Source: Burkholderiales bacterium (GTDB lineage: Bacteria > Pseudomonadota > Gammaproteobacteria > Burkholderiales > Burkholderiaceae_C). Taken from it: a stretch of DNA of 64,000 nucleotides. This document shows positions 1,077 through 20,727 of this stretch, piece by piece. Positions within the stretch are counted from its first letter, which is position 1. Each line of letters opens with the position of its first letter. The stretch covers positions 1-64,000 of the forward strand of contig JAJUGJ010000008.1 in assembly GCA_029268225.1 (NCBI GenBank). The letters are read 5' to 3'. The notes under the pieces were generated by a model. It did not search any database and was not told where the DNA came from. It saw only the letters and a program-made list of their open reading frames with translations. Both the position numbers and the translations under genes were made by a program.

Positions 1077-1092
1077 TACGCCATGTGGCGTA
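1077..1092. promoter_or_regulatory. Palindrome upstream of urtA (operator candidate)
   Basis: TACGCCA-TG-TGGCGTA is a perfect 7-bp inverted repeat in the divergent gap between urtA and the methyltransferase gene. The GTACGG at its right edge (1090-1095) recurs as CCGTAC at 7053-7058 in front of ureA and the sensor kinase. The size suits a dimeric regulator such as the nearby LuxR-type response regulator. That link is inference. Confidence 0.45.
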
Positions 1093-2437: not shown

Positions 2438-3412
2438 TCAGCGCGCCTTCAACTGCCCCACCCGGCTCAGAGCCAGCCCCGCCGCCGCCGTGCGGGTTTC
2501 GACCCCCATCTTAGCAAACACGCTCTCCAGTTGCTTTTTGACCGTGGCCGGGCTGCTGCCCAGGATGTCGCCAATGTCACGGTTGGTCTTGCCCTTGACG
2601 ACCCAGTACAGCACCTCACCTTCGCGGGCGGTGAGCTTGAAGGTCTGACTCAGGGCTTCCATGGCGGCCTGGTCAGAGCTTTCCTGCATGACCAGTAACC
2701 ATTCGTCGTCACCCGTGGGTTGGTGCAGAGTGAAACGCAGACAGCTGTGCCCCTGGTTCACCGTCCAACTCGGCGCGGGAACGGGCACATCGCCCTGCCC
2801 GGCCTGATCCTGCTGTCGCGACACAGCCAGACGCAGCCAATCCAGCAACTCAGGCGGCGCCACGGCCTCAGGGGTGTCAAAGTAGCGCTGCAAGAGCTTG
2901 CGGGCCAAGGGTGTTTGCCACAGCACCTTGCCCTCGCGCAGGTGCACGGTGAGCGAGGCGTGGCCGAATGCGTCGAGCGCATTGCGCGCTTGGCGCGACT
3001 GGCGGGCCGCCTGCATGTGTGTCTCGATGCGGGCGAGCACCTCGCGCGGGCGAATGGGCTTGACCACGTAATCCACGCCGCCGGCTTGAAACGCCGCCAC
3101 CACATGCTCGGTTTCGGCCAAGCCCGTCATGAAGACGATAGGGATGTGGCTGGTGTCGGGTTGCGCTTTCAGGCGTCGCGCCACCTCGAAGCCATCCATG
3201 CCGGGCATCACGGCATCGAGCAGGATGATGTCGGGCACCGCCTGGCTGGCACGCTGCAGGGCTGCCTCGCCGTGGGTGGCCACCAGCACGGTGTAACCAC
3301 CGTCGTCGAGGGCATCGTGCAACAGGGACAGGTTGTCCGGCACATCGTCCACGATGAGCACGACGTCGGTGCGGCTGCGGTCAAGTCGGTCGAACATGGG
3401 GTGGTCGTTCAT
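2438..3412 (-). CDS. LuxR/NarL-type response regulator, partner of the NCS1-kinase
   Basis: 324 residues from the ATG at 3412 (a TTG at 3421 would overlap the upstream stop). An N-terminal receiver domain carries the acidic pair in LIVDDVPDN, the phospho-acceptor Asp of IILLDAVMPG (about residue 66) and the conserved Lys of YVVKPI (about 118). A 100-residue linker follows, then a C-terminal LuxR helix-turn-helix (LTAREGEVLYWVVKGKTNRDIG, ending near residue 320). It begins 5 bp after the stop of the hybrid kinase gene, so the two form an operon and very likely a phosphorelay pair. Its expected targets are the urea genes on either side. That is inference from position. Confidence 0.9.
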   Translation of the reverse strand: MNDHPMFDRLDRSRTDVVLIVDDVPDNLSLLHDALDDGGYTVLVATHGEAALQRASQAVPDIILLDAVMPGMDGFEVARRLKAQPDTSHIPIVFMTGLAETEHVVAAFQAGGVDYVVKPIRPREVLARIETHMQAARQSRQARNALDAFGHASLTVHLREGKVLWQTPLARKLLQRYFDTPEAVAPPELLDWLRLAVSRQQDQAGQGDVPVPAPSWTVNQGHSCLRFTLHQPTGDDEWLLVMQESSDQAAMEALSQTFKLTAREGEVLYWVVKGKTNRDIGDILGSSPATVKKQLESVFAKMGVETRTAAAGLALSRVGQLKAR

Positions 3413-3417
3413 CAGGT

Positions 3418-6400
3418 TCAAAGAGCGGGCACGGCCGTGGGGGCCGGGCTGTCTGACGTGGGTGAAGCCTGGCTCGGGGGCTGAGCTTGGGCCAGCGCCT
3501 CTTCGATCAGCGTGGCCATGGCATCCAGGTGGAACTGGCGGGCCAAGGTGCGCATGCGTTGCACGAAGGGCTCGCAGTGGGGCTCGTCTGCGGCAATCTG
3601 GTCCAGCGCCTTGTGAACGCCCCGGACGTAGCCGGCATGGATCTGATCCTCCAGCCGGCGCAGAGCCGCCTCAGATGGGTAGACGGTGGCCGCACCGACA
3701 GGCGCGGACAGGCTGGCGACCTCGGCAGGACGCTCGGCCACGATCCAGTCCAATTGCAGCTGCCGCCCCAACCAGTCCAGCAACTCGGCCACGCGCACGG
3801 GCTTGACGATGAAGTCATCGGGCGTGATGCCAACGTCGTTGTCCAGGGCCTTGTCAAAGGCGTTGGCCGACACGATGGCGACCGGCGCGGTGCTGAGGCC
3901 TTCAGTGAGGATGGCGCGCAGGGTGCCCCAGCCGTCCAGGCCGGGCATGGCCAGGTCCATGAAAAGTGCGTGGGGTTGCAACTGCGGCGGCGTTTGTCGC
4001 AGGTGCGCCAGGCAATCCAGGCCAGAGGCCAGAGGCGTCACCTCAAAGCCCAAAGGACTCAGGATGCGCACCAGCAGACCACGGTCGGCCTCTTCGTTGT
4101 CGACCACCCAGATGCGGCGGCGCTCACCGGCATAGCCAGTGCGCTGCCCCTGCATCACGCGCTGCGCCACGTCAGAAGCACGCACCTGAGGCAGGAACAG
4201 GCGGATGCGGAAGGTGGTACCCACGCCCTCCTGGCTGGTGACCTTCATCTCACCCCCCATCAGATCGGTCAGCATCTTGCTGATGGTCAAACCCAGGCCG
4301 GTGCCGCTGGCTGCGTTGCCCGCGGCCGACGAGCCCCGCGCAAAGGGTTCGAACACCTTGTCCAGTTCACTCTGCGCAATGCCAGGGCCGGTGTCACTGA
4401 TCTCGATCAGCGCAATCTCACGGGCGTAGCGCACCTTGAAGGTCACTTGCCCCACGGTGGTGAACTTGACCGCGTTGCCCAGCACATTGAGCAAAATCTG
4501 CCGCACCCGCCGTTCGTCCGCACGCACGGCCTCGGGCAGATTGCGCTCGATGTCGGCCACGAAGCGCAGGTGTTTGGCTCGGGCCTCGTGCTCGATCAGG
4601 CCGGTGATCTGCTGCAGCAACTCGTCCAGCCGCACGGGCTTGACGTCCAGCGAGAGTTTGCCACTTTCGATGCGGGCAATGTCCAGCGTGCCCTCGATGA
4701 GCGACAGGAGGTGATCTCCGCCCCGCTTGATGACGCCCACTGCGTGCTTCACGTGTTCGGGCAGCTGGTGGTCTTCGTCGAGCAATTGGGCGTAGCCCAG
4801 GATGCCGTTGAGCGGGGTGCGTAACTCGTGGCTGATGGTGGAGATGTAGCGGCTCTTGGCCTGGTTGGCCTGGTCGGCGGTCTGCTTGGCCTGTTGCAGC
4901 TTGCCATCGGTGATGCGGTGTGATTCGATTTCTTGCACCAGCAGATGGGTCTGGCGGTTGGATTCCTCCTGAGCGACCTGCCGGCTCTTGTGCGTGAGCA
5001 CCAACCACCAGCCGACCACGCCCACGATCAACAACAGGGCCGCAAACACCTTGATGAAGGCGGCCTCCAGCATGGCGGCGGTGGCCGCAGGCGAGCCCAG
5101 GTCCAGCGCCACCATGTCGCGCACCTGTTGCTGGTAGACCAGACCGAAGACGCCCGCCAGCAGCGGGGTGAGCACCAGCATGATGAGCAGGAACTGACCC
5201 AGCTCGGTGTCCACTCGCCGCCAGACGAAGGCCGGCACCACGGCCCGGCCGATGTTGCGCCACTGCTCAGCCCAGCGCGCAGACGCCGGTTTGCACAGGT
5301 CCTGACAGCGCGCGTCCAGCGAGCAGCACAGCGAGCAGATGAAGCCCTGGTAAGCCGGGCAATGGGCCACGTCGTCGGCCTCGTACTCGCGCTCGCACAC
5401 GGTGCAACGGTGCAGGGCTTTGAGACGAATGACCCGGCTCAGGGGCTGGCCCGCCTCGCTCTCATCAAGATGTGGCAGTGGTTTCAGCACACCCGAGATC
5501 GACGCACAGTGGGACGTCGCACCCGGCATGGTCTCCACCTCTGGCTGACGCGCCAGGTAATAGCGCCCCTGCGTAGCCCAGGCAATGAGCGGCGAGGTCG
5601 TGAACGCCACCACCATGGCCAACACCGCCGAGAAGGCTTGGGCCAACTCGCCCAACCAGCCCACATAGGCCATCACCGACACCAGCGAGGCCAGGCCCAT
5701 CGCCCCCACGCCCACCGGGTTGATGTCATACAAATAGGCGCGCTTGAACTCGATGCCCTTGGGCGACCAGCCCATCGGCTTGTTCACCACCAAGTCAGCC
5801 ACCACGGCCATCATCCAGGCAATGGCAATGTTGGAGTACAGGCCCAGCACCTTGCCCAGGGCCTGGAACAGGTTCAGCTCCATCAGCAGCAGCGCGATCA
5901 AGGCGTTGAACACCACCCACACCACCCGCCCGGGGTGGCTGTGCGTGAGCCGCGCAAAGAAGTTCGACCACGCCAGCGAGCCCGCATAGGCGTTGGTCAC
6001 GTTGATCTTGATCTGCGAGATCACCACGAACACCGCCACCGCCCCGATGGCCAGCGAAGGCGAACTGAAAATCTTCTCCCACGCCACCAGGTACATTTGG
6101 TTCGGGTCCACCGCGCGCGCCACCGGAATCGCGTAGCTCATCGCCAACCAGGCCAGCAGCGCCCCACCCAGCATCTTCAACACACCCAGGATGACCCAGC
6201 CCGGCCCGCCCACGAACACCGCCGCCCACCAGCGGCCCGCGCGCTCGGGTCGCTTTTCGGGCATGAAGCGCAGGTAGTCGGCCTGCTCGCCCATCTGCGT
6301 GATCAGGGCAATGCCCACGGTCAACGCCGAGCCAAACGCCAGCAGGTTGAACTCGCCATACGCGCCCGTCGCCCCCGGGTAGGCCGCCAGGTCCTGCAAG

Positions 6401-7038
6401 ATGGTCGGGTGCTCACGGAACACCACGATGAAGGGCAGCACCAGCATCACCAGCCAGATGGGCTGGGTGATCAACTGCAGGCGGCTGATGATCGTCACCC
6501 CGTGGGTGACCAGCGGCACCACCACCAGCGCACAGATCAAGTAGCCCCAGGCCGGCGGAATGTCAAACGCCAGCTCCAGGGCGTAGGCCATCACGGCCGC
6601 CTCCAGCGCAAAGAAGATGAAGGTGAAGGACGCGTAGATCAGCGATGTGACGGTGGAGCCGATGTAGCCAAAGCCCGCCCCGCGCGTGAGCAGGTCCATG
6701 TCCAGCCCATGACGCGCGGCATACACGCTGATGGGCCAGCCCACCAGCAAGATGATGAGCCCCGTGGCCAGGATCGCCCAGAAGGCGTTGATGAAGCCAT
6801 GGTCCACCAACAGGGTGGCGCCGACGGCCTCCAGCACCAGAAAGGACGCGACCCCGAAGGCCGTGTTGGCCACCCTCGCCTCGCTCCAGCGGCGGGCCGA
6901 GCGAGGCGTGAAGCGCAGCGCGTAGTCTTCCAGGGTTTCGGACGCCACCCAGCTGTTGTAGTCCCGACGCACCTTCACCACGCGCTGCAAAGCCTCGCTG
7001 GCGGGGTCGATGGTGTGGGGCAGGTCTGGGTCTTGCAT
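3418..7038 (-). CDS. Hybrid sensor histidine kinase with NCS1 permease input domain
   Basis: 1206 residues, inner membrane. Residues 1-500 form an NCS1-family permease (nucleobase/allantoin/hydantoin type) with about 12 hydrophobic helices. Residues 545-582 are a cysteine-rich knot: C545, C548, C560, C568, C571, C572, C578 and C582, probably metal-binding. Two further helices lie at about 614-635 and 661-682. HisKA follows with the phospho-acceptor His737 (ISHELRTPLNG), then an ATPase domain (NAVKFT at 855, DTGPGI at 882, SGTGLGL at 911). A receiver domain has D1028 and K1079. The C-terminal helical segment shows no clear Hpt histidine. Starting at ATG 7038, the gene is divergent from ureA across a 107-bp gap and followed by its response regulator. 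Known transporter-kinases such as CbrA use an SSS transporter. Sensing of urea or a ureide here is inference. Confidence 0.93.
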   Translation of the reverse strand: MQDPDLPHTIDPASEALQRVVKVRRDYNSWVASETLEDYALRFTPRSARRWSEARVANTAFGVASFLVLEAVGATLLVDHGFINAFWAILATGLIILLVGWPISVYAARHGLDMDLLTRGAGFGYIGSTVTSLIYASFTFIFFALEAAVMAYALELAFDIPPAWGYLICALVVVPLVTHGVTIISRLQLITQPIWLVMLVLPFIVVFREHPTILQDLAAYPGATGAYGEFNLLAFGSALTVGIALITQMGEQADYLRFMPEKRPERAGRWWAAVFVGGPGWVILGVLKMLGGALLAWLAMSYAIPVARAVDPNQMYLVAWEKIFSSPSLAIGAVAVFVVISQIKINVTNAYAGSLAWSNFFARLTHSHPGRVVWVVFNALIALLLMELNLFQALGKVLGLYSNIAIAWMMAVVADLVVNKPMGWSPKGIEFKRAYLYDINPVGVGAMGLASLVSVMAYVGWLGELAQAFSAVLAMVVAFTTSPLIAWATQGRYYLARQPEVETMPGATSHCASISGVLKPLPHLDESEAGQPLSRVIRLKALHRCTVCEREYEADDVAHCPAYQGFICSLCCSLDARCQDLCKPASARWAEQWRNIGRAVVPAFVWRRVDTELGQFLLIMLVLTPLLAGVFGLVYQQQVRDMVALDLGSPAATAAMLEAAFIKVFAALLLIVGVVGWWLVLTHKSRQVAQEESNRQTHLLVQEIESHRITDGKLQQAKQTADQANQAKSRYISTISHELRTPLNGILGYAQLLDEDHQLPEHVKHAVGVIKRGGDHLLSLIEGTLDIARIESGKLSLDVKPVRLDELLQQITGLIEHEARAKHLRFVADIERNLPEAVRADERRVRQILLNVLGNAVKFTTVGQVTFKVRYAREIALIEISDTGPGIAQSELDKVFEPFARGSSAAGNAASGTGLGLTISKMLTDLMGGEMKVTSQEGVGTTFRIRLFLPQVRASDVAQRVMQGQRTGYAGERRRIWVVDNEEADRGLLVRILSPLGFEVTPLASGLDCLAHLRQTPPQLQPHALFMDLAMPGLDGWGTLRAILTEGLSTAPVAIVSANAFDKALDNDVGITPDDFIVKPVRVAELLDWLGRQLQLDWIVAERPAEVASLSAPVGAATVYPSEAALRRLEDQIHAGYVRGVHKALDQIAADEPHCEPFVQRMRTLARQFHLDAMATLIEEALAQAQPPSQASPTSDSPAPTAVPAL

Positions 7039-7053
7039 GGTGAGGGTTCAATC

Positions 7054-7090
7054 CGTACCCTGACATCGCAATTTCGATGCCGCCGGTACG
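7054..7090. promoter_or_regulatory. Inverted repeat in the sensor kinase/ureA divergent promoter region
   Basis: CGTACC (7054-7059) pairs with GGTACG (7085-7090), and inside it CATCG (7064-7068) pairs with CGATG (7075-7079), giving nested two-fold symmetry midway between two divergent starts. CCGTAC is shared with the edge of the palindrome upstream of urtA. This is an operator candidate for coordinated control of the kinase operon and the urease operon. Confidence 0.4.
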
Positions 7091-7145
7091 CGGCCCCTTT
7101 GACTGGCTTTGAAACTTGCCTTGCCCCTGGCCCTGACACGACACC

Positions 7146-7448
7146 ATGGAACTGACGCCACGCGAAAAAGACAAGCTGCTGATCTTCACCGCCGCCCTGC
7201 TGGCCGAGCGGCGCAAGGCCCGCGGTCTCAAGCTGAACTACCCTGAGGCGGTGGCCCTGATCTCGGCGGCCATCATGGAAGGCGCCCGCGACGGCAAGAG
7301 CGTGGCCGCCCTCATGAGCGAAGGCAAGACCGTGCTGAGCCGCGACGATGTGATGGACGGGGTCGCCGACATGATCCCCGACATCCAGATCGAAGCCACC
7401 TTTCCGGACGGCACCAAATTGGTGACCGTGCACCAACCCATTGCATGA
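7146..7448 (+). CDS. ureA: Urease gamma subunit
   Basis: 100 residues, the standard length. [20 protein letters not shown], the [14 protein letters not shown] block and the ending [12 protein letters not shown] are diagnostic. UreA packs with UreB and UreC in the cytoplasmic (UreABC)3 nickel enzyme that hydrolyses urea to ammonia and carbamate. It is the first gene of the plus-strand urease operon, 20 bp before a small membrane protein gene. ureD, often the gene just upstream of ureA, is not here: the upstream DNA is the divergent promoter region. Confidence 0.97.
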
Positions 7449-7467
7449 CCCTGTTCAAGGCACCAAC

Positions 7468-7653
7468 ATGAAGCACAACCCGCTGATCACCCCCCTGACC
7501 ACCTTGGCCGCCCTGCTGAGCACCGGCGCTGCCCACGCCCACGAAGGCCACGGCCTGCCGGGCATCTCCCACTGGCACAGCACCGACGTGCTGGGTTTCA
7601 TCGTCGTGGCTGCCCTGGTGGCAGGCGTCATCTGGTTCAAGGGCCGCAAATGA
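7468..7653 (+). CDS. Small His-containing membrane protein between ureA and ureB
   Basis: 61 residues from the ATG at 7468. It has a signal peptide ([20 protein letters not shown], cut near AHA), a short periplasmic stretch rich in histidine ([16 protein letters not shown]) and one C-terminal membrane helix ([15 protein letters not shown]) ending in KGRK. Its stop overlaps the ureB start (ATGA at 7650-7653), so it is co-translated with urease. Five histidines within about 15 residues just outside the membrane suggest metal contact, for example nickel handling. That is inference, and I do not recognise a named family. An in-frame GTG/ATG extension upstream to 7441 lacks a better ribosome site. 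Confidence 0.75.
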
Positions 7654-7970
7654 TGTCAGACCGCGTCACGCCAGGCGAGCTGCTGATCGACGGCCCCGAC
7701 CTGCCCATCAACCCCGGCCGCCGCACCCTGACGCTGGTGGTGGAAAACGCAGGCGACCGCCCCATCCAGGTGGGCTCGCACTACCACTTCGCCGAAACCA
7801 ACGGCGCGCTGCGCTTTGACCGCCCGGCGGCTCAGGGCATGCGCCTGAACATCGCCTCGGGCACCGCCGTGCGCTTTGAGCCCGGTCAGCAACGCACGGT
7901 CGAGCTGGTGGACTACGCCGGTGCGCGCGTGGTCTACGGCTTCCGCGGCCTGACCCAGGGCCCGCTCTGA
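7650..7970 (+). CDS. ureB: Urease beta subunit
   Basis: 106 residues, close to the usual 101-110. [17 protein letters not shown] at the N-terminus, [13 protein letters not shown] in the middle, and the C-terminal [18 protein letters not shown] followed by VYGF are the UreB signatures. It forms part of the cytoplasmic urease complex. The start at 7650 overlaps the stop of the small membrane protein gene, and a second ATG follows directly at 7653. ureC begins 64 bp downstream after an AAGAAGGA-type ribosome site. Confidence 0.97.
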
Positions 7971-8034
7971 CACCCTGCCCACCCGACCTGCACCACCGGA
8001 CCCTTGAACCGCCTCTGAAGAAGGACACGCCAAG

Positions 8035-9762
8035 ATGGCAAGCATCCAGCGCCGCGCCTACGCGGAAATGTTCGGCCCCACCGTGGGCGACCGCCTGCGC
8101 CTGGCCGACACCAACCTGATCCTCGAAGTCGAACAGGACTACACCCTGCGGGCTGGCGGCTACGGCGAAGAGGTGAAGTTCGGTGGCGGCAAGACCATCC
8201 GCGATGGCATGGGCCAAAGCCAGGTCTGCAACGGCCCCGGCGCCATGGAGGCTGCCGACTGTGTGCTGACCAATGCCCTCATCCTCGACCACTGGGGCAT
8301 CGTCAAGGCCGACATCGGCATCAAGGCGGGGCGCATCGTCAAGATCGGCAAGGCCGGCAACCCCGATGTGCAACCCGGCGTGGACATCGTCATCGGCCCC
8401 GGCACCGAGATCGTCGCCGCAGAAGGCATGATCGTCACCGCCGGCGGCATCGACACCCACATCCATTTCATCTGCCCTCAGCAGATCGAGGAAGCCCTCA
8501 GCAGCGGCGTGACCACCATGATCGGCGGTGGCACCGGCCCGGCCACGGGCACCTTCGCCACCACCTGCACGCCCGGCCCCGACAACATCGCGATGATGCT
8601 CAAGGCCGCCGAAGCGTTCCCGATGAACCTGGGCTTTTTGGGCAAGGGCAACGCCAGCCAACCCGAAGCACTGCGCCAACAGGTGAACGCCGGCGTGATC
8701 GGCCTGAAGCTGCACGAGGACTGGGGCACGACGCCCGCGGCCATCGACACCTGCCTCAGCGTGGCCGAAGAGACCGACATCCAGGTCGCCATCCACTCCG
8801 ACACGCTCAACGAATCGGGCTTTGTGGAAGACACGGTGGCCGCCTTCAAGGGCCGCACCATCCACAGCTTCCACACCGAAGGTGCGGGCGGCGGACACGC
8901 ACCCGACATCATGAAGGTGGTGGGCGAGCTCAACGTGCTGCCCTCGTCCACCAACCCGACGCGCCCCTTCACGGTCAACACCATCGACGAGCACCTCGAC
9001 ATGCTCATGGTGTGCCACCACCTCGATGCGTCCATCGCCGAAGACCTGGCTTTTGCCGAGAGCCGCATCCGCCGCGAAACCATCGCCGCCGAGGACATCC
9101 TGCACGACCTGGGCGCCATCAGCATGTTCTCGTCCGACTCGCAGGCCATGGGCCGCGTCGGCGAGGTCATCTTGCGCACCTGGCAAACCGCCCACAAGAT
9201 GAAGGCCCAGCGCGGCAAGCTGCCCGGTGACACCGACCGCCACGACAACGCCCGCATCAAGCGCTATGTGGCCAAGTACACCATCAACCCGGCGCTGGCT
9301 CACGGCGTGGCACACGAGGTCGGCAGCATCGAAGAAGGCAAATGGGCCGATCTGGTCATCTGGCGCCCGGCCTTTTTCGGCGTCAAGCCCAGCATCATCA
9401 TGAAGGGTGGTTTCATTGCCGCAGCCGCGATGGGTGACCCCAACGCCTCCATCCCGACGCCACAACCAGTGCACTACCGCCCGATGTTCGGCGCCTTTGG
9501 TGGCGCGGTGGCCCGCACCTCGCTCACCTTCCTGAGCCAGGCGGCCATTGCCGCGGGCGTGCCCGGCCAGCACGGGCTGAAGAAACAGGTCGTGGCCGTG
9601 AAGGGCTGTCGCACGGTCAAGAAAACGGACATGGTGCACAACAGCTACCTGCCCACCATGGAGATCGACGCCCAGACCTACCAGGTACGCGCCGATGGCA
9701 AGTTGCTGACCTGCGAGCCGGCGGTGAGCCTGCCGCTGGCCCAGCGCTACTTCCTGTTCTGA
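8035..9762 (+). CDS. ureC: Urease alpha (catalytic) subunit
   Basis: 575 residues (the family is about 567-575). All bi-nickel centre residues are present: H142 and H144 (DTHIHF), the lysine that is carbamylated, K225 (GLKLHEDWG), H254 (AIHSD), H280 (SFHTEG) and D368 (FSSDSQ). The mobile-flap cysteine C327 and the catalytic-flap H328 (MVCHHLD) are also intact. It hydrolyses urea in the cytoplasm after UreDEFG-dependent nickel insertion. The start is the ATG at 8035 after GAAGAAGGACACGCCAAG. The accessory genes ureEFG do not follow directly, because a chemoreceptor gene intervenes. Confidence 0.98.
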
Positions 9763-9990
9763 GCGATCCATCACAGCATCGTGTCACGCACATGACACCG
9801 GGATGTCACATCGATGAACGCCGCGATGTTCGGGGATCCGTCACAAAGCGCTCAAGCTGACACATTCCTTTCGTGATCGCCAAAGAAGATGGCGGCGGCC
9901 GTGCTGCGTCAGGACGCAGGTGGGCCGTCGTCAGGCATGGGATGGGGTGCGCCCGGCTGACGAGCTCAGACGCCCCCGAACAGGACTCCC

Positions 9991-11559
9991 GTGCAATTTT
10001 TCGTTCGACTCCGTGATTGGAAGGTCGGCACCCGCCTGGCCTTTGGCTTTGGCCTGATTCTCTCCCTGCTGTGCGTCGTCGCCGTGCTGGGCATGCTGGG
10101 CATCGAGCGCAGCCGCGCGATGCACAACATCTTTGAAGAAGCCCTGGCCTTGCGCCAGCAAGGCAGCCACGTCAACACCCTGCTGCAACAAGACCTGGTC
10201 AAGACCCAGGCCATCATCCGCTCGGCCGGCATGCCCGAGGTCGTCGAGCGCTTCAAGCCCGAGCTGCAAGCTGCTGACCAGACCATTGCCCAGGTGCTGC
10301 AAAAGCTGGCCAGCAACCCGGTCGTTGCCGTCAAGACCCAGGCCAACACCCTGCGCACGCAACACCAGCAGTATGTGAAGACCCGCAACGAGGTGCTGGA
10401 GTTGGTCGAAACCGGCCAAACCCTGCTGGCCACCGAGCAAGAAAATCAGGTGCTGCTGCCAGCCGCCGCAGCCGTGACCCGTGAGAGCGACAAGCTACTC
10501 CAGCAAGTCGAACAGCACACCCAGGAAGCACAGGCCAACTTCGCACACACCACGGCCACCGCACAGTGGCTCATCGGCGCCTTGACCCTGGTCACCTTGC
10601 TGGCGGGCACGGCATGGGCATGGTTCATCGCCCGCTCGGTGAGCCGCCCCGCCCTGGCCGCCATGCAGGTCAGCGAAGCCATTGCCGAGGGACGACTGTC
10701 CCACTCGGTCCACGTCGAAGCGGGCCAGGATGAACTGGGCCGCATGCTCGACTCCATGCGCCGCATGCGCACCAATCTCCTGCAGCTCACCGGTGAGGTG
10801 CGCAACCAGTCTGAACAGCTGGCCGTGACCTCGCACCAGGTCGCCACCGACGCCACCCACCTGTCGCGCAGCTCGCAAGAGCACGCCAGCGAGCTGGCCC
10901 AGTCGCGCCAGGCTTTGCAACAGATCGAGGCCGACATCTCCGACAACCTCTCGCGCACCCACCAGGCCAGCCAACTGGCCTCGACCGCGCGCGAAGTGGC
11001 CCAGGAAGGTCGCAGCTCCATGACCCGCGTGATCGACACCATGCGCGGCATCCACACGTCCAGCAAGCGCATGAGCGACATCATCGGCGTGATCGACGGC
11101 ATTGCCTTCCAGACCAACATTCTGGCCCTGAACGCCGCCGTAGAAGCCGCTCGTGCAGGTGAACAAGGCCGCGGCTTCGCCGTGGTCGCCTCCGAGGTGC
11201 GCTCGCTGGCACAGCGCTCGGCCAACGCCGCCCGCGAGATCAAGCAGCTGATCGTGGACAGCGCCAACCGCGTCACCGAGGGCGCCGATCTCGTTGAACA
11301 GACCGGTAACACCATCCACAACCTGCAAAACACCATCGATGAGGTGGCCCAGCTCATCACCCACCTGACCCAAACCAGCCAGGAACACGCCCAAGGCATT
11401 GGCAACGTGCGTGAAACGGTGCACCGCCTGGACGAGGCCACCCAGCACAACATGGTGCTGATGACCCAGAGCACTCAGGCGGCTGAAGGGTTGAAGTCAC
11501 AGGCCGACCGCCTGCTGGCCTCCGTGTCCTTCTTCCAACTGAGCCCCTCCGGCACCTGA
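9991..11559 (+). CDS. Methyl-accepting chemotaxis protein inside the urease operon
   Basis: 522 residues from a GTG start at 9991 ([19 protein letters not shown]). A first membrane helix lies at about residues 17-40, then a periplasmic region of about 150 residues (four-helix-bundle type by length and heptads), a second helix ([19 protein letters not shown], about 190-210), a HAMP linker, and a methylation/signalling domain with the hairpin tip [18 protein letters not shown]. There is no CheR-docking pentapeptide at the C-terminus. It sits between ureC (228 bp away) and ureE (57 bp away), all on the same strand, so it may report urea or ammonia gradients. The ligand is unknown. Confidence 0.95.
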
Positions 11560-11616
11560 GGTCGGCACGGGGTCGCTACACTTTGTGGCTTCACCTGAAG
11601 TGCAAAGCGAGCCCCC

Positions 11617-12348
11617 ATGCTGACCGTCAACAAGCTCCTCCCCCAGGGCCAAGGCCTGGCCCCCGTGCTGCTCAAACGCGCCGCCGCCGTGCAACTGGAC
11701 TGGGATGTGCGCCAGAAAAGCCGCTTTGACGCGGTGGACAGCCAAGGCCGCAGCCTGGGCGTGTTCCTGCCCCGCGGCACCGTGGTGCGCGGCGGCGATG
11801 TGCTGGTGGCCGAAGATGGCAGCATGATCCGTGTGGAAGCCGCGCCTCAGAACGTGCTGGTCATCACGCCGTGCAGCGAGCATGGCTCACCGTTTGACCT
11901 GACGCGTGCGGCCTACCACCTGGGCAACCGCCATGTGCAGATCGAGCTGCAGCCCGATCACCTGAAGATCGAGCCCGATCATGTCCTGGCCGACATGCTG
12001 CGCGCCATGCACCTGACGGTACGCGAGACGCAGGCCGCGTTCGAGCCCGAGGGCGGCGCCTACGCTGCGGGTGGGCATGGTCACAGCCACGGTCATGGTC
12101 ATGGTCATGGTCATGGTCATGGTCATGGTCATGGTCATGGTCACGAGCATGAACACGCGCACTCCCACGCGCACGGCGAGGCCGGCCACGTTCACGGCCC
12201 CGGCTGTGGACATGACCACGGTACGCCGACAGGTGCAGAGGGTGCGGCGGCCGCCGCCCCCACCTCACGCGGCAAGCCCATCGGCATCGCGATCAAGGCC
12301 GCCCCGGTGCCCCACGTGCACGGCCCGGGCTGCGGTCACGACCACTGA
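11617..12348 (+). CDS. ureE: Urease nickel metallochaperone UreE with long His-rich tail
   Basis: 243 residues, longer than most UreE proteins (about 150-200). Residues 1-75 form the peptide-binding domain. The metal-binding domain follows and includes the conserved GNRHVQIELQ block. From about residue 154 there is a histidine tail of alternating His-Gly, then HEHEHAHSHAHG, and two HVHGPGCGHDH modules near residues 195 and 235. UreE delivers Ni2+ to the UreABC-UreDFG complex; the tail should bind several nickel ions. It lies downstream of the chemoreceptor and 121 bp before ureF. The tail contains a hexanucleotide repeat tract, described separately. Confidence 0.96.
   Translation: MLTVNKLLPQGQGLAPVLLKRAAAVQLDWDVRQKSRFDAVDSQGRSLGVFLPRGTVVRGGDVLVAEDGSMIRVEAAPQNVLVITPCSEHGSPFDLTRAAYHLGNRHVQIELQPDHLKIEPDHVLADMLRAMHLTVRETQAAFEPEGGAYAAGGHGHSHGHGHGHGHGHGHGHGHGHEHEHAHSHAHGEAGHVHGPGCGHDHGTPTGAEGAAAAAPTSRGKPIGIAIKAAPVPHVHGPGCGHDH
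12091..12144 (+). repeat. GGTCAT hexamer tract in ureE
   Basis: Eight perfect copies of GGTCAT (12091-12138) plus a GGTCAC variant encode alternating Gly-His. Because the unit is six bases, slippage would change the number of Gly-His pairs without a frameshift, altering tail length and nickel capacity. Confidence 0.95.
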
Positions 12349-12469
12349 CTGCACGCGAACGCCACGCGACCCCATCCAGGTCGACCTGCATCCGCCTCAC
12401 GGATGCACCAAAACGAAGCGCCCGGGCATGGTGCTTGCTTGATTCCAGCAAGCCCCACACACCAGCCCC

Positions 12470-13228
12470 ATGCCCCGCGTTCTCGCCCGCCCCGCCCCCC
12501 TGCCTCCCGCCGCCCGCCTGCAACTGATGTGGCTGGCCTCGCCCGCCCTCCCCGTGGGTGGCTTCAGCTATTCCGAAGGGCTGGAGTCGGCCATCGACAC
12601 CGGCCGCGTCACCGACGAAGCCCAGGCCGCCGACTGGCTGCTGCAGCAACTCCACCTCAGCCTGGCCCGCGCCGACCTGTCCGTCGTCGCCCGCGCCGTG
12701 GCCGCCTGGCAGCGCCACGATCTGGCCCGCATCACCGAACTGAACGCCTGGATCACGCACACCCGCGAAACCAGCGAGTTGCGCCAACAAACCGAACAGA
12801 TGGGCCGCTCCCTGGTGGAGTGGCTGCGCAACCGCTCGGGCGATGCGCTGTCTCACCCTGCTGATCAGCGTCTGGCCCAATGCGCCGCACTGAGCCCCGC
12901 CCCCAACTGGCCCATCGCCTTTGCCCTGGCCGTGGCCCAGTGTCTGCCCGCCCAGACCAACGCAGACACCATGCTCGCCGCCCAACACGAGGCCCTGCTG
13001 AGCTTTGCCTTCGGTTGGGCAGAGAACATGGTGCAAGCCGCCATCAAGGCCGTGCCCCTGGGCCAAAGCGCCGGCCAGCGCATCCTGCAAATCCTCATCG
13101 ATGCCATCCCCGATGCCATCGACCACGCCCTGGCCCTGCCTGACAGCCAACGCCAGGCCTTCACTCCCATGCTGGCCATCCTCAGCGCCCAGCACGAACA
13201 CCAGTACTCACGCCTTTTCAGATCATGA
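12470..13228 (+). CDS. ureF: Urease accessory protein UreF
   Basis: 252 residues, all-helical. [21 protein letters not shown] near the N-terminus is the UreF signature, followed by RARETSE-like text ([17 protein letters not shown]) and the C-terminal [19 protein letters not shown]. UreF works with UreD and UreG as the activation scaffold on apo-urease and gates the GTPase activity of UreG. Its stop overlaps the start of ureG (ATGA at 13225-13228), so the two are translationally coupled. The ATG at 12470 was chosen because it is directly upstream of the conserved core. Confidence 0.95.
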
Positions 13229-13869
13229 GCAACCTGCATCACATCCCCGGCCGCACCAAGAAGCTCCCTCCCCTGCGCGTGGGCGTAGGTGGGCCGGTTG
13301 GCTCCGGCAAAACGACCCTGCTCGAAATGCTGTGCAAGACCATGCGCGAGCAATACGACCTGGTCGTCATCACCAACGACATTTACACCAAGGAAGACCA
13401 GCGTCTGCTGACCGTGGCCGGCGCCCTCGACCCGGATCGCATCATGGGCGTGGAAACCGGTGGCTGCCCGCACACCGCAATCCGCGAAGACGCCTCCATC
13501 AACCTGGAAGCCGTGGACCGCATGCTGGCCAAGTACCCGAACGCCGACATCGTCTTCATCGAGTCGGGTGGGGATAACCTGGCGGCGACCTTCAGCCCCG
13601 AGCTGAGCGATCTGACGATTTACGTGATCGACGTGGCGGCGGGCGAGAAAATCCCGCGCAAAGGCGGCCCCGGCATCACCAAGAGCGACCTGTTTGTCAT
13701 CAACAAAACGGATCTGGCGCCCTATGTGGGGGCCAATCTGGACATCATGGAGGCCGATACAAAGCGGATGCGGCCGACGCGCCCCTTCGTGATGACCAAC
13801 CTCAAGACCCAAGCCGGTCTGCGCGATGTCATTGGCTTCATCGAAACCAAAGGCATGCTCACGGCCTGA
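13225..13869 (+). CDS. ureG: Urease accessory GTPase UreG
   Basis: 214 residues. A SIMIBI-class GTPase that supplies GTP-driven nickel transfer. The P-loop is [17 protein letters not shown] (about residue 22), with the NDIYTKEDQ segment, the metal-binding CPH motif in [23 protein letters not shown] and the guanine-specificity [10 protein letters not shown]. It is the last gene of the urease cluster. Two bases after its stop begins a sequence resembling a tRNA 3' end, the left edge of the mobile island. Confidence 0.97.
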
Positions 13870-15302: not shown

Positions 15303-16205
15303 TCAAACCGTTTCGGGCGCTGTCTCGACGCATTGAGGGGTGTTTTCGACAACATCAAACAAGGCTTCTTGGCTCCTTTCAAAGTTCATGGGTGAGAGGT
15401 GGCCCAAGCCGCTGTGGCGGCGTCTGGGGTTGTACCAACCTTCAATCCATGTGAAGACAGCCATGCGTGCCTGAGCTTTGCTTTGGAAGCTGTTGCGCTC
15501 AATCAGTTCGCCTTCAAGACTGGCGAAGAAGCTCTCTGCCATTGCGTTGTCGTAGGCATCGCCCACCGTCCCCATGGAAGGCCGAACGCTCATCTGACGG
15601 CAGCGTTCGCCGAAGGCCAGACTCGTGTACTGGCTACCCTGGTCCGAGTGATGGATGACGCCCTTGGGCTTGCGCTGCTCCAATGCCATGTTCAACGCCG
15701 CGAGAACAAGGTCTGAGGTCATGCGTTCACCCATGGACCAGCCCACGACCCGGCGACTCCATACGTCGATGACCACGGCCAAGTAGAGGAATCCCATCCA
15801 GGTGGGCACGTAGGTCATGTCAGCTACCCACAACTGGTTCGGCCCGCTGGCGCGGAAGCGCCGGTTGACCAAGTCCCTGGCAGGCACCTCATGCTTGTTG
15901 CGGCGGGTGGTCACAGTGAACCCACGCCTCTTGCTGATGCCATGCAGACCTGCTGCACGCATGAGACGCGCCACGCGCTGACGACTGATGCACACGCCTT
16001 GCTCCATGAGCTCAGCTCTCACGCGTGGCATACCATAGGACTCGTAGGAGTCCTTGTGAACCTGGCGGATACGCTCAGTCATCACTGCGTTGGCAATACT
16101 GCGCTGAGAGGGGTTGCGGTCACGCCAAGCGTAGAAGCCACTGGCTGACACGCCCAGCACTCGGCACATCGTGCGCACGGGTAGGTCGGCCTGGTTCGCG
16201 TTCAC
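15303..16205 (-). CDS. IS3-family transposase OrfB (catalytic)
   Basis: 300 residues from a GTG at 16205. The frame continues open upstream of it (residues DFHEVFGL), as expected for an OrfAB fusion made by -1 frameshifting within the orfA end. An HTH_21-like segment (SYESYGMPRVRAELMEQG) precedes the rve integrase core with the DDE residues: D in WVADMTYVPTWMGFLY, D in IHHSDQGSQYTS, and E in NAMAESFFASLEGELI. The C-terminal YNPRRRHSGLGHLSP is typical. It catalyses copy-out/paste-in transposition of the element. Confidence 0.95.
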   Translation of the reverse strand: MNANQADLPVRTMCRVLGVSASGFYAWRDRNPSQRSIANAVMTERIRQVHKDSYESYGMPRVRAELMEQGVCISRQRVARLMRAAGLHGISKRRGFTVTTRRNKHEVPARDLVNRRFRASGPNQLWVADMTYVPTWMGFLYLAVVIDVWSRRVVGWSMGERMTSDLVLAALNMALEQRKPKGVIHHSDQGSQYTSLAFGERCRQMSVRPSMGTVGDAYDNAMAESFFASLEGELIERNSFQSKAQARMAVFTWIEGWYNPRRRHSGLGHLSPMNFERSQEALFDVVENTPQCVETAPETV

Positions 16206-16525
16206 GAGTCCGAAGACTTCGTGGAAGTCGCGTCGCTGCGACCCGCAAACCAGGCCGTAGCCTTTGCCAAGATGTCCCGCTCCATCTGAACCTGACGTAA
16301 CTGTCGGCGCAATCGCACCAACTCTTCACGCTCGGCAGTGGTCAGCCCCTCCTTGCCTGGTAAAGGCTTGCCACTATCGATGGCTGCCTGCCCCACCCAA
16401 TTGGTGATGGATTGCGCAGTGACACCGAACTCACGAGAGAGCTCTGCTGGAGAGCGGCCAGCTCGAACGAGCTCGACCATCTGTTGCCGGAATTCCGCCG
16501 GATATGGCGGGCGTACTTTGGACAT
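16202..16525 (-). CDS. IS3-family transposase OrfA
   Basis: 107 residues from the ATG at 16525. A helix-turn-helix (AELSREFGVTAQSITNWVGQ) is followed by a leucine-zipper-like helix (AEREELVRLRRQLRQVQMERDILAKATAWFA), the standard OrfA layout. It overlaps the orfB start by 4 bp. OrfA binds the terminal repeats and modulates transposition. An in-frame extension upstream to 16561 lies in the terminal repeat and is unlikely to be used. Confidence 0.93.
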   Translation of the reverse strand: MSKVRPPYPAEFRQQMVELVRAGRSPAELSREFGVTAQSITNWVGQAAIDSGKPLPGKEGLTTAEREELVRLRRQLRQVQMERDILAKATAWFAGRSDATSTKSSDS

Positions 16526-16579
16526 CTTCGACTCCTTGAACACAAAGCATGATGTGTCCACGGAACCGGGTCAACTCCA

Positions 16580-16775
16580 TGTCCGCTATCACGCGCAGGA
16601 CTTGCATTAGGTCGCCTGTGCGGCCCTCGCCGCCTGAGCGCTCAATGCTTTGAGCGGCAACACGCGCAACCGCCTCAATCTGACTCAGGCCGCGCTGTGA
16701 GAGCTGGTCCATTGTCTTGATGCTGGACCGTAACGTTTGAATCCGCCCGTCCAGGGCTTGATGCGGGCCGCTCAT
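16580..16775 (-). pseudogene. Third gene of the satellite early operon, truncated by the IS
   Basis: The frame opens with an ATG at 16775 that overlaps the stop of the 164-aa gene (ATGA). It encodes about 65 native residues (MSGPHQALDGRIQTLRSSIK and on to LMQVLRVIADMEL) before running into the IS terminal repeat at 16579. The visible part is helical and charged. I recognise no family, but its position in a C4-RNA-controlled operon suggests a phage/satellite early function. The rest of the gene, and whatever lay beyond it, is missing on the far side of the IS. Confidence 0.7.
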
Positions 16776-17266
16776 GCCGCCCCCCCACGCTCTGACTGCC
16801 CGCCAAGTGTTCTAGACAATGAGGGAGGCTGAATAACTCTGAGAAGCCCTTTGGCGATCAACATATCGCGATAGGAGTTCACAGCCACCGACCGCACCTC
16901 AGCCGCCACATCGGACCCAGCGGCGACTACTTCGCCGCTCTCGTTCAGCACAGCAAACGAACCGGGCTCACCGGCAATCGTCACTGAAGCCCCCTCATGA
17001 ACCACGCCACTGATAAGGACTCCACCTGCGATTGGCTCGCCCCAAACCCGCACATGCCCCTCGCCTTTCAACATGGCCCTGTAGAAATTCACACACACCG
17101 TAGCCAACACACGGGCCACGTCATCCCCCAAGGCAACAATGCTGCCATCAGCCGCGAGGACAGCTAACACGCCAGGTTGCCCCTCAATGGTCAAGGTCAG
17201 GGGCTTGCCAGCAGTTCGCGCAATCACGATGCCGGGTAGGCGTCCGGTCTTTTGCGTGCCGATCAT
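16772..17266 (-). CDS. Satellite early-operon protein with duplicated module, unknown function
   Basis: 164 residues from the ATG at 17266, overlapping the upstream stop (ATGA), so translated by coupling. It holds two tandem copies of a module of about 55 residues: GQPGVLAVLAADGSIVALGD with VNFYRAMLKGEGHVRV (about residues 24-75), and GEPGSFAVLNESGEVVAAGS with VNSYRDMLIAKGLLRV (about 89-145). Each has a beta-rich half (an apparent ligand- or metal-neutral beta meander) and a helix. I do not recognise the family. It probably belongs to the P4-like early region; no catalytic motif is evident. Confidence 0.75.
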   Translation of the reverse strand: MIGTQKTGRLPGIVIARTAGKPLTLTIEGQPGVLAVLAADGSIVALGDDVARVLATVCVNFYRAMLKGEGHVRVWGEPIAGGVLISGVVHEGASVTIAGEPGSFAVLNESGEVVAAGSDVAAEVRSVAVNSYRDMLIAKGLLRVIQPPSLSRTLGGQSERGGAA

Positions 17267-17478
17267 GCAGCCACCTCCAGCGCACGCAGCGCATTGAGGG
17301 CAGACAGGGCCTGCACAGCCTTGCGAGCCGCACCGGGCACATTGGCCGCAGGCTGGCGCAGGTGATACAGGGCCACGCTGAGAGCGTTTTCGGCTTGGGC
17401 GTGAAGCTGGGAGATTTCCAGCTCAGAGAGAGGGACAGGCGCAGCGGATGAGCTGGCCAAGGTCATGACCGTGGACAT
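17263..17478 (-). CDS. Small first gene of the satellite early operon
   Basis: 71 residues from the ATG at 17478, preceded by AAGGAG eight bases upstream. An alternative start 33 bp further upstream has no such site. It is a helical protein: a low-complexity Ser/Ala/Pro N-terminus, then SELEISQLHAQAENALSVAL and a leucine/alanine-rich end. No family recognised. Its ribosome site overlaps the second half of the RNA segment complementary to the antisense RNA (17490-17498), so its translation, and through ATGA overlaps that of the next two genes, could be directly controlled by RNA pairing. Confidence 0.75.
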   Translation of the reverse strand: MSTVMTLASSSAAPVPLSELEISQLHAQAENALSVALYHLRQPAANVPGAARKAVQALSALNALRALEVAA

Positions 17479-17489
17479 GGTTTCAGGCT

Positions 17490-17537
17490 CCTTATCGAGA
17501 CTTGAAGCCACCCGCAGCGTTCTTACGCGCAGCGGGT
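17490..17537 (-). promoter_or_regulatory. seqC-like target: hairpin plus ribosome site
   Basis: On the minus-strand RNA, ACCCGCUGCG pairs with CGCUGCGGGU (17537-17510, one mismatch) and displays GUAAGAAC in the loop. Further on, CGAUAAGG (17497-17490) merges into the AAGGAG ribosome site. Both segments are complementary to parts of the antisense RNA (UUCUUA and CCUUAUCG). Confidence 0.65.
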
Positions 17538-17605
17538 GGGCGGGATGTTAAGAACACGCGATAAGGCGTGCGGACGCCCTTACGGGTAGCCCCATCCCGC
17601 CCGCA
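17535..17605 (-). ncRNA. C4 / P4 CI-like antisense immunity RNA
   Basis: The minus-strand RNA folds with a perfect 10-bp closing stem GGGCGGGAUG/CAUCCCGCCC (17602-17593 with 17547-17538), an inner hairpin GGCGU-CCGC-ACGCC, and the motif CUACCCGUAAGGG, all in the style of the C4 antisense RNA family. The segment CCUUAUCGCGUGUUCUUAAC (17566-17547) is complementary to a target upstream (17681-17700) and to another downstream (17490-17526). That three-part arrangement is how P4 immunity RNA causes premature termination of the early transcript. Protein-like frames across it (such as GLPVRAS) are shadows. The family assignment is from memory of its features, not a covariance search. Confidence 0.75.
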
Positions 17606-17680
17606 ACCAACAGCACGCCATTGCAGCGCACCGGAAATGTTCGGACGTGACAAAGCCTCACTGTCGGGGAGGCTGCACCG

Positions 17681-17700
17681 CTTATCGATGGTGTTCTTAC
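17681..17700 (-). promoter_or_regulatory. seqA-like target of the antisense RNA
   Basis: The RNA GUAAGAACACCAUCGAUAAG (17700-17681) pairs with the antisense segment at 17566-17547 in two blocks, UAAGAACAC:GUGUUCUUA (9 bp) and CGAUAAG:CUUAUCG (7 bp), separated by a small internal loop. It lies about 20 bases after the predicted transcript start. Confidence 0.65.
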
Positions 17701-17725
17701 GCACCGGGCCTTTCGGCTTGGGCGG

Positions 17726-17756
17726 ATTATTGCACGCAGGTTGGCTGGGGTGTCAA
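17726..17756 (-). promoter_or_regulatory. Sigma-70 promoter for the antisense RNA/early operon
   Basis: On the minus strand, a perfect TTGACA (17756-17751) is followed after 19 bases by AATAAT (17731-17726). The predicted start near 17719 leads into the seqA-like target, the antisense RNA, and then the early genes, as for the P4 late-early promoter. Confidence 0.65.
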
Positions 17757-17886
17757 GCCCTGGTGACGCTAGGTGCTGGCGCTGGTGGACTAATCCAGAC
17801 GTCAAGACAAAAAGTGACCCACGCTTTGCACCTCACGCAGTCGTGACGCCATAGTGGCCAGGTCAAAACTGTAGGAAAGGAATGAC

Positions 17887-18069
17887 ATGGACACCCTCGA
17901 TATGCACACAGCGACAGTCGTTATCCGGGCTTGCCAAGACGAACAAAACCCAACTACCCAAGCGGAGGCGCAGAGAAAGCGCGATGAGTGGCTGAGCCAG
18001 ATACAGGCGGGCTGGCTTGAAGCGTCTGAGCCAGTCGCTCAAGTCTTGGCATCAAGCGGCGCTCAGTGA
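17887..18069 (+). CDS. Small hypothetical protein divergent from the immunity region
   Basis: 60 residues with an ATG at 17887 and a good ribosome site (AGGAAAGGAATGAC). The protein is polar and helical (AEAQRKRDEWLSQIQAGWLE), with no signal peptide and no family that I recognise. It is transcribed away from the antisense RNA promoter and ends 63 bp before a bidirectional terminator. It may be an island regulator or anti-immunity product, but nothing in the sequence demonstrates that. Confidence 0.5.
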   Translation: MDTLDMHTATVVIRACQDEQNPTTQAEAQRKRDEWLSQIQAGWLEASEPVAQVLASSGAQ

Positions 18070-18131
18070 GCGTCGGTGTCGTGCCAACGTCATGCTGCAT
18101 TCAATGCCGGCCAGAAGGCAACACCAGCCAT

Positions 18132-18159
18132 AAAAAAAGGGAGCCAAGCTCCCTTTTTT
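18132..18159. terminator. Bidirectional Rho-independent terminator
   Basis: GGGAGC-CAA-GCTCCC stem with seven A on the left and six T on the right. It closes the small plus-strand gene and, from the other side, the toxin-antitoxin operon whose last stop is at 18181. Confidence 0.92.
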
Positions 18160-18180
18160 GCCTTCGCGTGCGTCGCCCAG

Positions 18181-18516
18181 TTAGGCGGCCTTCTTGCGCT
18201 TTTCAATGTCGTGATCGACCTCATCAGCCTTTTGGGCATGATGCTCCATCACTTCCTTCAAGCCTTCAGGGGCAAACCGTTGAAGGATGTCGCGCATCAA
18301 CGGCTGGTAGCCAACGCCGTGATGATTGGCAATCAGCTTGTAGGCGTCGATCAACTCCTTAGGCAAGCGAATGGAAATCGCTTGCATACCCAAGCTGGAA
18401 TCAATGGCTGCCTCTAGATCAACCGAGACGGCGCGTACATGGTCCTCGCTAGCGCCCAAAGCGCGGGATTCCCATGCTTCATCGGTGCTTTCAAGTCTGT
18501 CCTGTGCCTTCGTCAT
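18181..18516 (-). CDS. CopG/BrnA-like antitoxin
   Basis: 111 residues from the ATG at 18516, which has AGGAGAAGCAACG just upstream. A GTG at 18537 would overlap the preceding gene. The central QAISIRLPKELIDAYKLIA, followed by a helix and GYQPLMRDILQRF, is a ribbon-helix-helix DNA-binding unit of the kind found in BrnA/CopG antitoxins. The C-terminus is charged (KADEVDHDIEKRKKAA). The gene is 17 bp after the toxin-like gene on the same strand, the toxin-first order typical of brnTA. It probably neutralises the toxin and represses the operon. Confidence 0.8.
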   Translation of the reverse strand: MTKAQDRLESTDEAWESRALGASEDHVRAVSVDLEAAIDSSLGMQAISIRLPKELIDAYKLIANHHGVGYQPLMRDILQRFAPEGLKEVMEHHAQKADEVDHDIEKRKKAA

Positions 18517-18533
18517 CGTTGCTTCTCCTAGAG

Positions 18534-18821
18534 TCACCGCCCATGGCGGTCATAAATTGCAAGTTCCACGGGGTTCGGTTCGTACGCAGTGCGTAAATGA
18601 ACTAGCCCGTCTTTAAAAATAAAAACAACCTTGAGTTGCCTGTCCTCATTGGTCGGAGCAATGAACCACATGGTGGCTGGGTCGCTTCGATGATCTTCCC
18701 GGGAGTCCTCCAGGAACAGGCCACACTTGTTTGCAAAGCACTGCTCAACCTCACGACGAGACACCTGGTGCTTGTCAGCCAGCTTATCGAGCGTCGCTTG
18801 TGAGATGAGCAAATTTTTCAT
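18534..18821 (-). CDS. BrnT-like toxin candidate (small RelE/DUF4258-type fold)
   Basis: 95 residues from the ATG at 18821. The pattern of an N-terminal helical segment (LDKLADKHQVSRREVEQCF), then EDHRSDPATMWFIAPTNEDR, LKVVFIFKDG and VHLRTAYEPN resembles the small BrnT/RelE-like family that is often mis-named ADP-ribosyl-dinitrogen-reductase hydrolase and paired with a CopG antitoxin. If correct, it would be a ribonuclease that halts translation. It is the first gene of the pair and lies in the island as likely cargo for maintenance. Assignment from motif memory only. Confidence 0.7.
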   Translation of the reverse strand: MKNLLISQATLDKLADKHQVSRREVEQCFANKCGLFLEDSREDHRSDPATMWFIAPTNEDRQLKVVFIFKDGLVHLRTAYEPNPVELAIYDRHGR

Positions 18822-20528: not shown

Positions 20529-20577
20529 GGGGGCAACTCCAAATGGGGGCAACTCAGATGCCCCCAATGTTGCCCCC
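20529..20577. repeat. GTTGCCCCC repeats at the integrase start
   Basis: Two inverted copies (GGGGGCAAC at 20529-20537 and 20545-20553) and one direct copy (20569-20577) lie directly upstream of the integrase start. With the pair near the left attachment site, they are candidates for arm-type binding sites and for autoregulation of the integrase gene. Confidence 0.6.
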
Positions 20578-20626
20578 ACGCTGCACCGGCTGTCAACGCA
20601 CCACCCCGGACACGCACGGACGAAAA

Positions 20627-20659: not shown

Positions 20660-20702
20660 CTGTTTCCGTGGACTTCCGAGAAAATCCGTAAATGTGCGGG
20701 TA

Positions 20703-20727
20703 TGGTCCCCCAGCCTGGAATCGAACC
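20703..20727. other. Right attachment site (tRNA 3' end)
   Basis: The last 25 bases of tRNA-Arg(CCT), matched by the degenerate copy after ureG. Integration keeps the tRNA intact because the element restores its 3' end. Confidence 0.75.

Follow-up and report, generated by a model that had tools for sequence, protein, structure and literature searches.

Layout of the locus

The DNA analysed here, called the window, is the whole stretch of 64,000 nucleotides at positions 1 to 64,000 of contig JAJUGJ010000008.1 from a Burkholderiales bacterium (assembly GCA_029268225.1). It carries a gene for a hybrid histidine kinase with a permease-like head, to which an initial annotation made from the sequence alone had drawn attention. 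The start of the window is the start of the contig and falls inside urtA on the minus strand. Downstream of the kinase lies the gene of a response regulator (RR), which overlaps the kinase stop by 4 bases, and an intergenic region of 107 base pairs (bp; 7039-7145) separates the kinase gene from the divergently oriented ureA. The LuxR-type regulator next to the kinase and the divergent urease genes had both been described correctly. The urease genes span 7146-13869 (+) in the order ureA, a 70-amino acid (aa) open reading frame (ORF), ureB, ureC, a chemoreceptor gene, ureE, ureF and ureG (Table 1). From the evidence presented below, we consider it probable that the kinase is a receptor derived from a transporter, that it recognises urea or short-chain amides and that it controls urt via the RR.

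Table 1. Position of the kinase, its domains and the associated genes and elements in the window
Feature	Position	Strand	Basis
urtA, cut by the contig start	1..999	-	79% identical to annotated UrtA of L089
Putative RR operator TACGCCATGTGGCGTA	1077..1092	.	lone TACG-N8-CGTA in window, 77 bp upstream of urtA
LuxR/NarL-type RR, REC + GerE	2438..3421	-	Pfam
Hybrid histidine kinase with permease head, 1206 aa, ATG start	3418..7038	-	ORF + Pfam
Receiver domain, D1028	3775..4113	-	Pfam, residue check
HATPase_c	4192..4518	-	Pfam
HisKA, phosphoacceptor H737	4660..4860	-	Pfam, residue check
Two extra membrane helices, residues ~612-684	4987..5205	-	model helices + hydropathy
Eight-cysteine module, residues 545-582	5293..5406	-	all 8 Cys unchanged across 73 kinases
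NCS1-like permease head, residues 1-510, 12 helices	5509..7038	-	AlphaFold2 model, Foldseek
Sigma54-like -24/-12 element CGGCATCGAAATTGCG pointing to kinase gene	7067..7082	-	pattern match
ureA	7146..7448	+	Pfam
ureB	7650..7970	+	Pfam
ureC	8035..9762	+	Pfam
ureE, ureF, ureG	11617..13869	+	domain scan

Domain organization and fold of the kinase

Pfam places HisKA at residues 727-793, HATPase_c at 841-949 and Response_reg at 976-1088. With the histidine in HisKA and the aspartate in the receiver present, the protein has all the parts of a hybrid HisKA kinase; an NCBIfam scan returned only generic kinase matches, all below the cut-offs. Model helices and hydropathy together give 12 membrane helices before residue 490 and two further ones at ~612-645 and ~650-684, behind the cysteine module. 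Helix numbers, kinase domains and phosphorylation sites all agree with the initial annotation.

The head was modelled with AlphaFold2 from an alignment of 73 sequences (mean predicted local distance difference test score 77.6, predicted template modelling (TM) score 0.78). When the model was compared with the PDB by Foldseek, the top match was CodB (7qoa; expectation value (E) 5.8e-9, TM score normalised by target 0.76), followed by Mhp1 (2jln; E 8.3e-9, TM score normalised by target 0.66). The Pfam family of NCS1 proteins, PF02133, gave no match to the head at E up to 10, a negative that is limited by the HMMER filters, which discard most matches above ~0.1. Across the kinase's own genome PF02133 found only a different gene, and HMMER with alignment A2 matched no NCS1 sequence in the PDB. 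Because PF02133 fails on the head, the label NCS1 rests on the fold: in the model the head is NCS1-like, but it is not a PF02133 member. The complete NCS1 permease that had been proposed as input domain is thus retained as a 12-helix fold nearest to CodB and Mhp1, without the family membership. Pfam models exist for both SSS and STAC, and neither matched the whole protein (threshold 0.001) or residues 1-722 (E up to 10).

The eight cysteines that had been reported within residues 545-582 are all in place (545, 548, 560, 568, 571, 572, 578 and 582) and follow helix 12. They are invariant throughout alignment A1, which comprises the window's kinase and 72 of 80 kinase loci (those 80 being the best of 576 relatives). 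C545, C548, C568 and C571 are also present in two stand-alone permeases. If the N terminus is cytosolic, the module should be cytosolic as well, where a disulphide-bonded knot would be unlikely; the cysteine knot of the initial annotation is not supported. Short strands at this place in the model and the CxxC...CSLC spacing fit a zinc site, as do matches to zinc-finger/RING-type proteins, which are weak and non-significant (best E 0.74, HMMER of alignment A2 against PDB sequences); the module is likely a small domain of the zinc-finger type. It is not specific to kinases. All four stand-alone permeases whose tails were read end in a Cys tail, with a short 4-Cys form in L093, L094 and L271 and a long form in L272. 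A structural zinc site is therefore likelier than the redox input that had been suggested alongside a metal input.

Distribution and genomic neighbours

A sample of 398 Pseudomonadota genomes, drawn evenly, was searched for the head with a threshold of E at most 1e-10. There were matches in 54 genomes including the window's own, with G194 and G236 giving only a weak match or a fragment, and 57 of the 60 match places were long frames of at least 894 aa, as expected for the kinase. From 58 of these places the regions were taken (the window, G000, and a 94-aa fragment in G236 were set aside), and 56 of the regions contain a kinase; the permeases L166 and L167 and the partial frame G842:C123 enter neither this count nor that of the stand-alone permeases. 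Genes were labelled as urt, ure, fmdA or amiE by BLAST thresholds against annotated reference proteins.

With these labels, 54 of the 56 kinases had urt, ure or fmdA beside them. The neighbour sets were urt+fmdA+amiE (14), urt+fmdA (20), urt+amiE (1), urt alone (5), ure+urt (7), ure (5), fmdA alone (2) and none (2), and both regions with none (L143, L165) are cut by a contig end that lies at the kinase or shortly upstream of it. In genome_contigs, where the 80 best of 576 relatives were examined with flanks of at most 10 kb, ure and/or urt were found at 60 loci (ure+urt 24, ure 33, urt 3), and 20 loci showed neither. Fifteen of these 20 were traced further (L032, L039, L062, L065 and L067 were left out), and all 15 genomes have urtA and ureC elsewhere. 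In a more distant class sample, head homologues occurred in 17 of 369 genomes.

In annotated records, a urtABCDE-formamidase set adjoins the kinase in Chelatococcus, Paraburkholderia, Klebsiella, Methylobacterium and Burkholderia vietnamiensis, and urt without formamidase does so in Rhizobium and Thioclava. The Mitsuaria record has urease beside the kinase and urt ~8 kb away; the Azospirillum lipoferum record has neither near the kinase. Head homologues also occur on plasmids and are frequent on large ones of Klebsiella: 536 PLSDB records match the head, 342 of them from Klebsiella, and 306 of the 536 (all hosts) are typed as conjugative. The Klebsiella plasmid locus L092 contains the kinase, urtABCDE and a gene annotated as formamidase. 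Tabulating the neighbours, as the initial annotation had proposed, thus strongly supports the link to urea uptake and use.

The fold of the head leaves room for another ligand. Since CodB and Mhp1 transport cytosine and hydantoin, the head might sense a nucleobase or a purine-derived compound such as allantoin, hydantoin or cytosine, with urt and ure lying downstream of purine breakdown. However, the neighbours that recur are urtABCDE, urease, formamidase (fmdA), fmdB and aliphatic amidase (amiE), xanthine dehydrogenase genes were near only one of nine annotated kinase records (purine genes were not searched systematically), and where close homologues of the head stand alone, they belong to urease or formamidase operons. 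A purine or allantoin sensor does not fit these neighbours, and we regard it as very improbable. The initial annotation had suggested urea or a urea precursor as ligand; the neighbours give no indication of purine or allantoin precursors.

Some homologues deviate from the usual arrangement. L151 and L158 are shorter kinases (frames of 894 and 899 aa) with fmdA downstream, for which no partner RR was found at the threshold used; they are possibly a variant system. The distant homologue L274 (G527, 6849-13348) lies near a gene whose start resembles, by eye, form II RuBisCO, and the second copy in that genome, L275, is found in another context; both are outside the urea/amide rule. Urea carboxylase had been guessed from gene length beside the Zoogloea kinases, but the gene starts do not fit, and by eye these neighbours resemble PilS/PilR-type and Kup-type genes.

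A palindrome upstream of urtA accompanies the kinase

Intergenic regions were subjected to a spaced-dyad count, and the results were compared with 20 shuffled sets. The palindrome TACG-N8-CGTA was present in 31 of 38 de-duplicated divergent kinase-urtA regions (35 of 43 without de-duplication) and did not occur in any of the shuffled sets. Where urtA follows the kinase-RR pair, it was found in 34 of 35 upstream regions. The lone miss was the window itself, in which the urtA start had been mis-set; the site is present there, and in a position-weight scan of the whole window it scores 25.5 bits, the next best score being 5.3. One such site per 64 kb is by itself near the chance expectation, so that the weight of the palindrome comes from its position and conservation and not from the raw count.

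The palindrome also follows the kinase where the two are apart. All 5 urease-type genomes in which the start of urtA is ~10-245 kb from that of the kinase have it upstream of urtA, as do all 15 traced genomes described above upstream of their urtA elsewhere; altogether, 20 of 20 tested genomes with a kinase not adjoining urtA have it. It was absent upstream of urtA in 35 of 35 kinase-less genomes, a non-random control taken from the best-scoring urtA matches of 167 urtA-positive genomes. It was equally absent at the second urtA copies of 20 genomes with another kinase type; the kinase is formamidase-linked in 19 of these, and in the remaining one (G111) its upstream side is missing. In two loci, L328 and L336, the palindrome lies between the kinase and ureJ or ureD, i.e. 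directly at urease. In L329 and L331-L335 it lies before the kinase; a neighbour, allophanate hydrolase, was identified for L330 only.

The initial annotation expected the RR to act at both divergent promoter regions. A predicted operator is present at urtA, whereas a strict operator between ureA and the kinase was rejected, being present in 0 of 65 such regions. Degenerate copies, scoring above the best of 320 shuffled sequences, were found in 16 of 64 ureA-kinase regions. Sigma54-like -24/-12 elements are enriched in these regions: they point toward the kinase in 43 of 64 and toward ureA in 25 of 64, with 0.3 expected from shuffles in either case, the pattern for this count having been fixed after the spaced-dyad results were seen. 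The window has one element toward the kinase gene and none toward ureA. On the best reading, urease is not a predicted direct target of the RR in the window's genome and would be a direct target only in some relatives.

Alternatively, the palindrome could belong to another regulator, and the kinase and RR could sense something else, such as ammonium or nitrogen status, and merely be co-inherited with urt. It is co-occurrence that connects RR and palindrome, and the sigma54-like elements hint at an additional, general nitrogen control of the locus. Against this stand the 5 of 5 genomes with a distant urtA, the 15 of 15 in which the flank shows no urtA, and the 35 of 35 kinase-less genomes with a close urtA that lack the site. 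We consider this explanation unlikely and regard the palindrome as the putative operator of the RR. No paper on the palindrome was found, which is weak evidence, as most subscription journals were outside the search.

Stand-alone homologues of the head

The permeases L093 and L094 (~535 aa) have no kinase part and are 42-43% identical to the head. Stand-alone homologues are of two types. The first is located in or directly beside urease genes in 8 of 8 examined cases (Klebsiella L094, Acinetobacter L093, L271 and L353-L357). In all four cases of the second (L272, L350-L352), the permease is the first gene of a permease-fmdA-fmdB-amiE series that diverges from the kinase. This series stands at the place taken elsewhere by urtABCDE, and in 3 of the 4 cases the palindrome lies between it and the kinase. 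Both settings point to shared small substrates. The presence of this permease in the place of Urt is the strongest argument that the head may bind the same small amides. L166 and L167 are far more distant permeases without a kinase (31% and 29% identical, in frames 552 and 489 aa long), and no urt, ure or fmd genes were found near them.

The head could still be a working urea or amide importer whose transport flux is read by the kinase, a true transceptor like CbrA. Q248, E251, Q252, K344, N346 and N349 are invariant in 36 kinases and two stand-alone permeases, and the SLC5 head of CbrA transports histidine, according to the accessible text of PMC7918813. Transport by the head itself would, however, be redundant: a separate importer, urt, is present in 47 of the 56 kinase regions of the phylum sample, and four other kinase regions adjoin a stand-alone permease. 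We view a transporting head as a possibility worth keeping, though not the one we favour; the preferred reading is a receptor derived from a transporter.

In a FastTree tree of 165 heads, a single clade with 89 members and a support of 0.997 takes in 65 of the 71 urease-labelled kinases, together with 21 unlabelled and 3 urt-labelled ones and no formamidase-labelled one. Y152, A157, P162, G242, T247 and M249 are each found in at least 97% of the 65 urease-labelled kinases of this clade and in at most 9% of 45 formamidase-labelled heads. Three genomes (G246, G379, G225) carry both kinase types, each beside its own gene set. From the clade split, the fixed residues and the two-type genomes we infer a switch of ligand from amide to urea, which is testable. 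A fuller account, to which we give an even chance, would be as follows. NCS1-like permeases for urea and short-chain amides would form a family not recognised so far, with a Cys-finger tail in the cytosol, and would serve as stand-alone importers in urease and formamidase operons. The kinase would have arisen by fusion of such a permease, finger included, to a kinase, which gave a dedicated membrane receptor for urea. In the urease clade an amide would then have been exchanged for urea as the ligand; Y152, G242, T247 and M249 are the candidates for residues that set this specificity.

Proposed mechanism

In the proposed mechanism, the ligand of the head would be urea in the urease-linked clade, or, in the formamidase-linked relatives, a short-chain amide, for instance formamide. 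The resulting change in conformation would reach the HisKA-ATPase core by way of the Cys finger and the pair of extra helices, and phosphate would then pass from H737 to D1028 and on to the LuxR-type RR, either directly or via an HPt protein. The RR would bind the palindrome ATACGYCANNTGRCGTAT upstream of urtA and control the Urt ABC importer; activation is assumed, and repression is also possible. The sigma54-like element upstream of the kinase gene suggests that nitrogen limitation sets the amount of sensor made. The initial annotation had the receptor couple uptake or binding of urea or a precursor to the expression of urt and ure. The linkage to both gene sets agrees with this, but the predicted direct control is restricted to urt here.

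Several observations weigh against this interpretation. The measured data do not separate urea from another amide, and functional data on any family member were not found in the literature searched. The palindrome is tied to the RR by co-occurrence and not by binding. The strict palindrome is missing from eight divergent kinase-urtA regions, of which half hold a one-base variant and the other half only weaker ones; it is at the expected place in only 5 of 8 linked regions of the distant sample, and the window's ureA-kinase region has neither a strict nor a degenerate copy. Across the window's own genome there is one exact copy of the extended form and one with a single mismatch, against four matches of a control pattern read backward. 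The urease clade leaves out six urease-labelled kinases. A scatter of homologues away from any urea or purine genes would have argued against the link; this was not seen in the phylum sample, but of the 15 kinase regions in the distant class sample no more than 8 have urt, ure or fmdA in their vicinity. Two of the seven unlinked regions, L276 and L286, are on short stretches, and L286 has the palindrome before the kinase. Lastly, genome G527 carries two kinase copies near other genes.

Other features of the locus

The 70-aa ORF (7441-7653, +) between ureA and ureB has a hydrophobic stretch; many relatives have a larger HupE/UreJ gene at this place, and it is perhaps a shortened UreJ. Inside the urease cluster, between ureC and ureE, lies a gene for a methyl-accepting chemotaxis protein (9991-11559, +; 4HB_MCP + HAMP + MCPsignal). 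A homologue occupies the equivalent position in L009 (88%), and another adjoins ureC in L025 (59%). We regard it as a candidate urea chemoreceptor. Directly downstream of the urease cluster, at 15303-20777, are an rve-type transposase gene and a phage-type integrase gene adjoining tRNA-Arg(cct), likely an integrated element.

Comparison with known systems

Dedicated receptors for external urea are, to our knowledge, little known in bacteria; UreR of enterics is of the AraC type and acts inside the cell. If our interpretation is true, the kinase is a widespread receptor for external urea, for which an operator and a regulon are predicted and to which a family of putative urea/amide permeases corresponds. 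As the sensor occurs beside stand-alone homologues, and urease- and formamidase-linked paralogues occur in one genome, the conversion of a transporter into a receptor can be studied directly by experiment.

We found no literature on an NCS1-like kinase, which is weak evidence of absence, since most subscription journals were outside the search, and none on a regulator of this type for Urt/Fmd. The Urt/Fmd importers of urea and short-chain amides, with the formamidase FmdA, are the putative regulon, i.e. the output and not the sensor. Formamide uptake by formamidase-linked Urt has been suggested from colocalisation (PMC13209695, accessible text). In Paracoccus, induction of urt and ure has been reported, and this kinase is not mentioned in the accessible part of that text (PMC5424462). 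GrtK of Burkholderia glumae was considered as a characterised member, but according to the accessible text it is a PilS-type kinase of 427 aa (PMC12918730).

Among the nearest known designs are the SLC5/STAC kinases, which include CbrA and CrbS (accessible text of PMC7918813 and PMC13022988). Like the window's kinase, CbrA, CrbS/MxtR and RpuS have a complete transporter head of the LeuT fold fused to a HisKA-type kinase, and CrbS/MxtR is likewise a hybrid with a receiver (PMC7918813). Unlike these, the window's kinase has no detectable SSS or STAC; its head is NCS1-like, the Cys module and two extra helices replace STAC-PAS, and its gene neighbours are those of urea and amide use. Ks-Amt5, an ammonium transporter-histidine kinase fusion of an anammox bacterium, also uses a nitrogen-substrate transporter as sensor head, but this has the Amt fold and another ligand (PMC5764959, accessible text). 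The NCS1 transporters CodB and Mhp1, the best fold matches of the head, show 16-18% identity to it in the Foldseek alignments; unlike them, the head escapes PF02133, is fused to a kinase and is followed by a C-terminal cysteine module.

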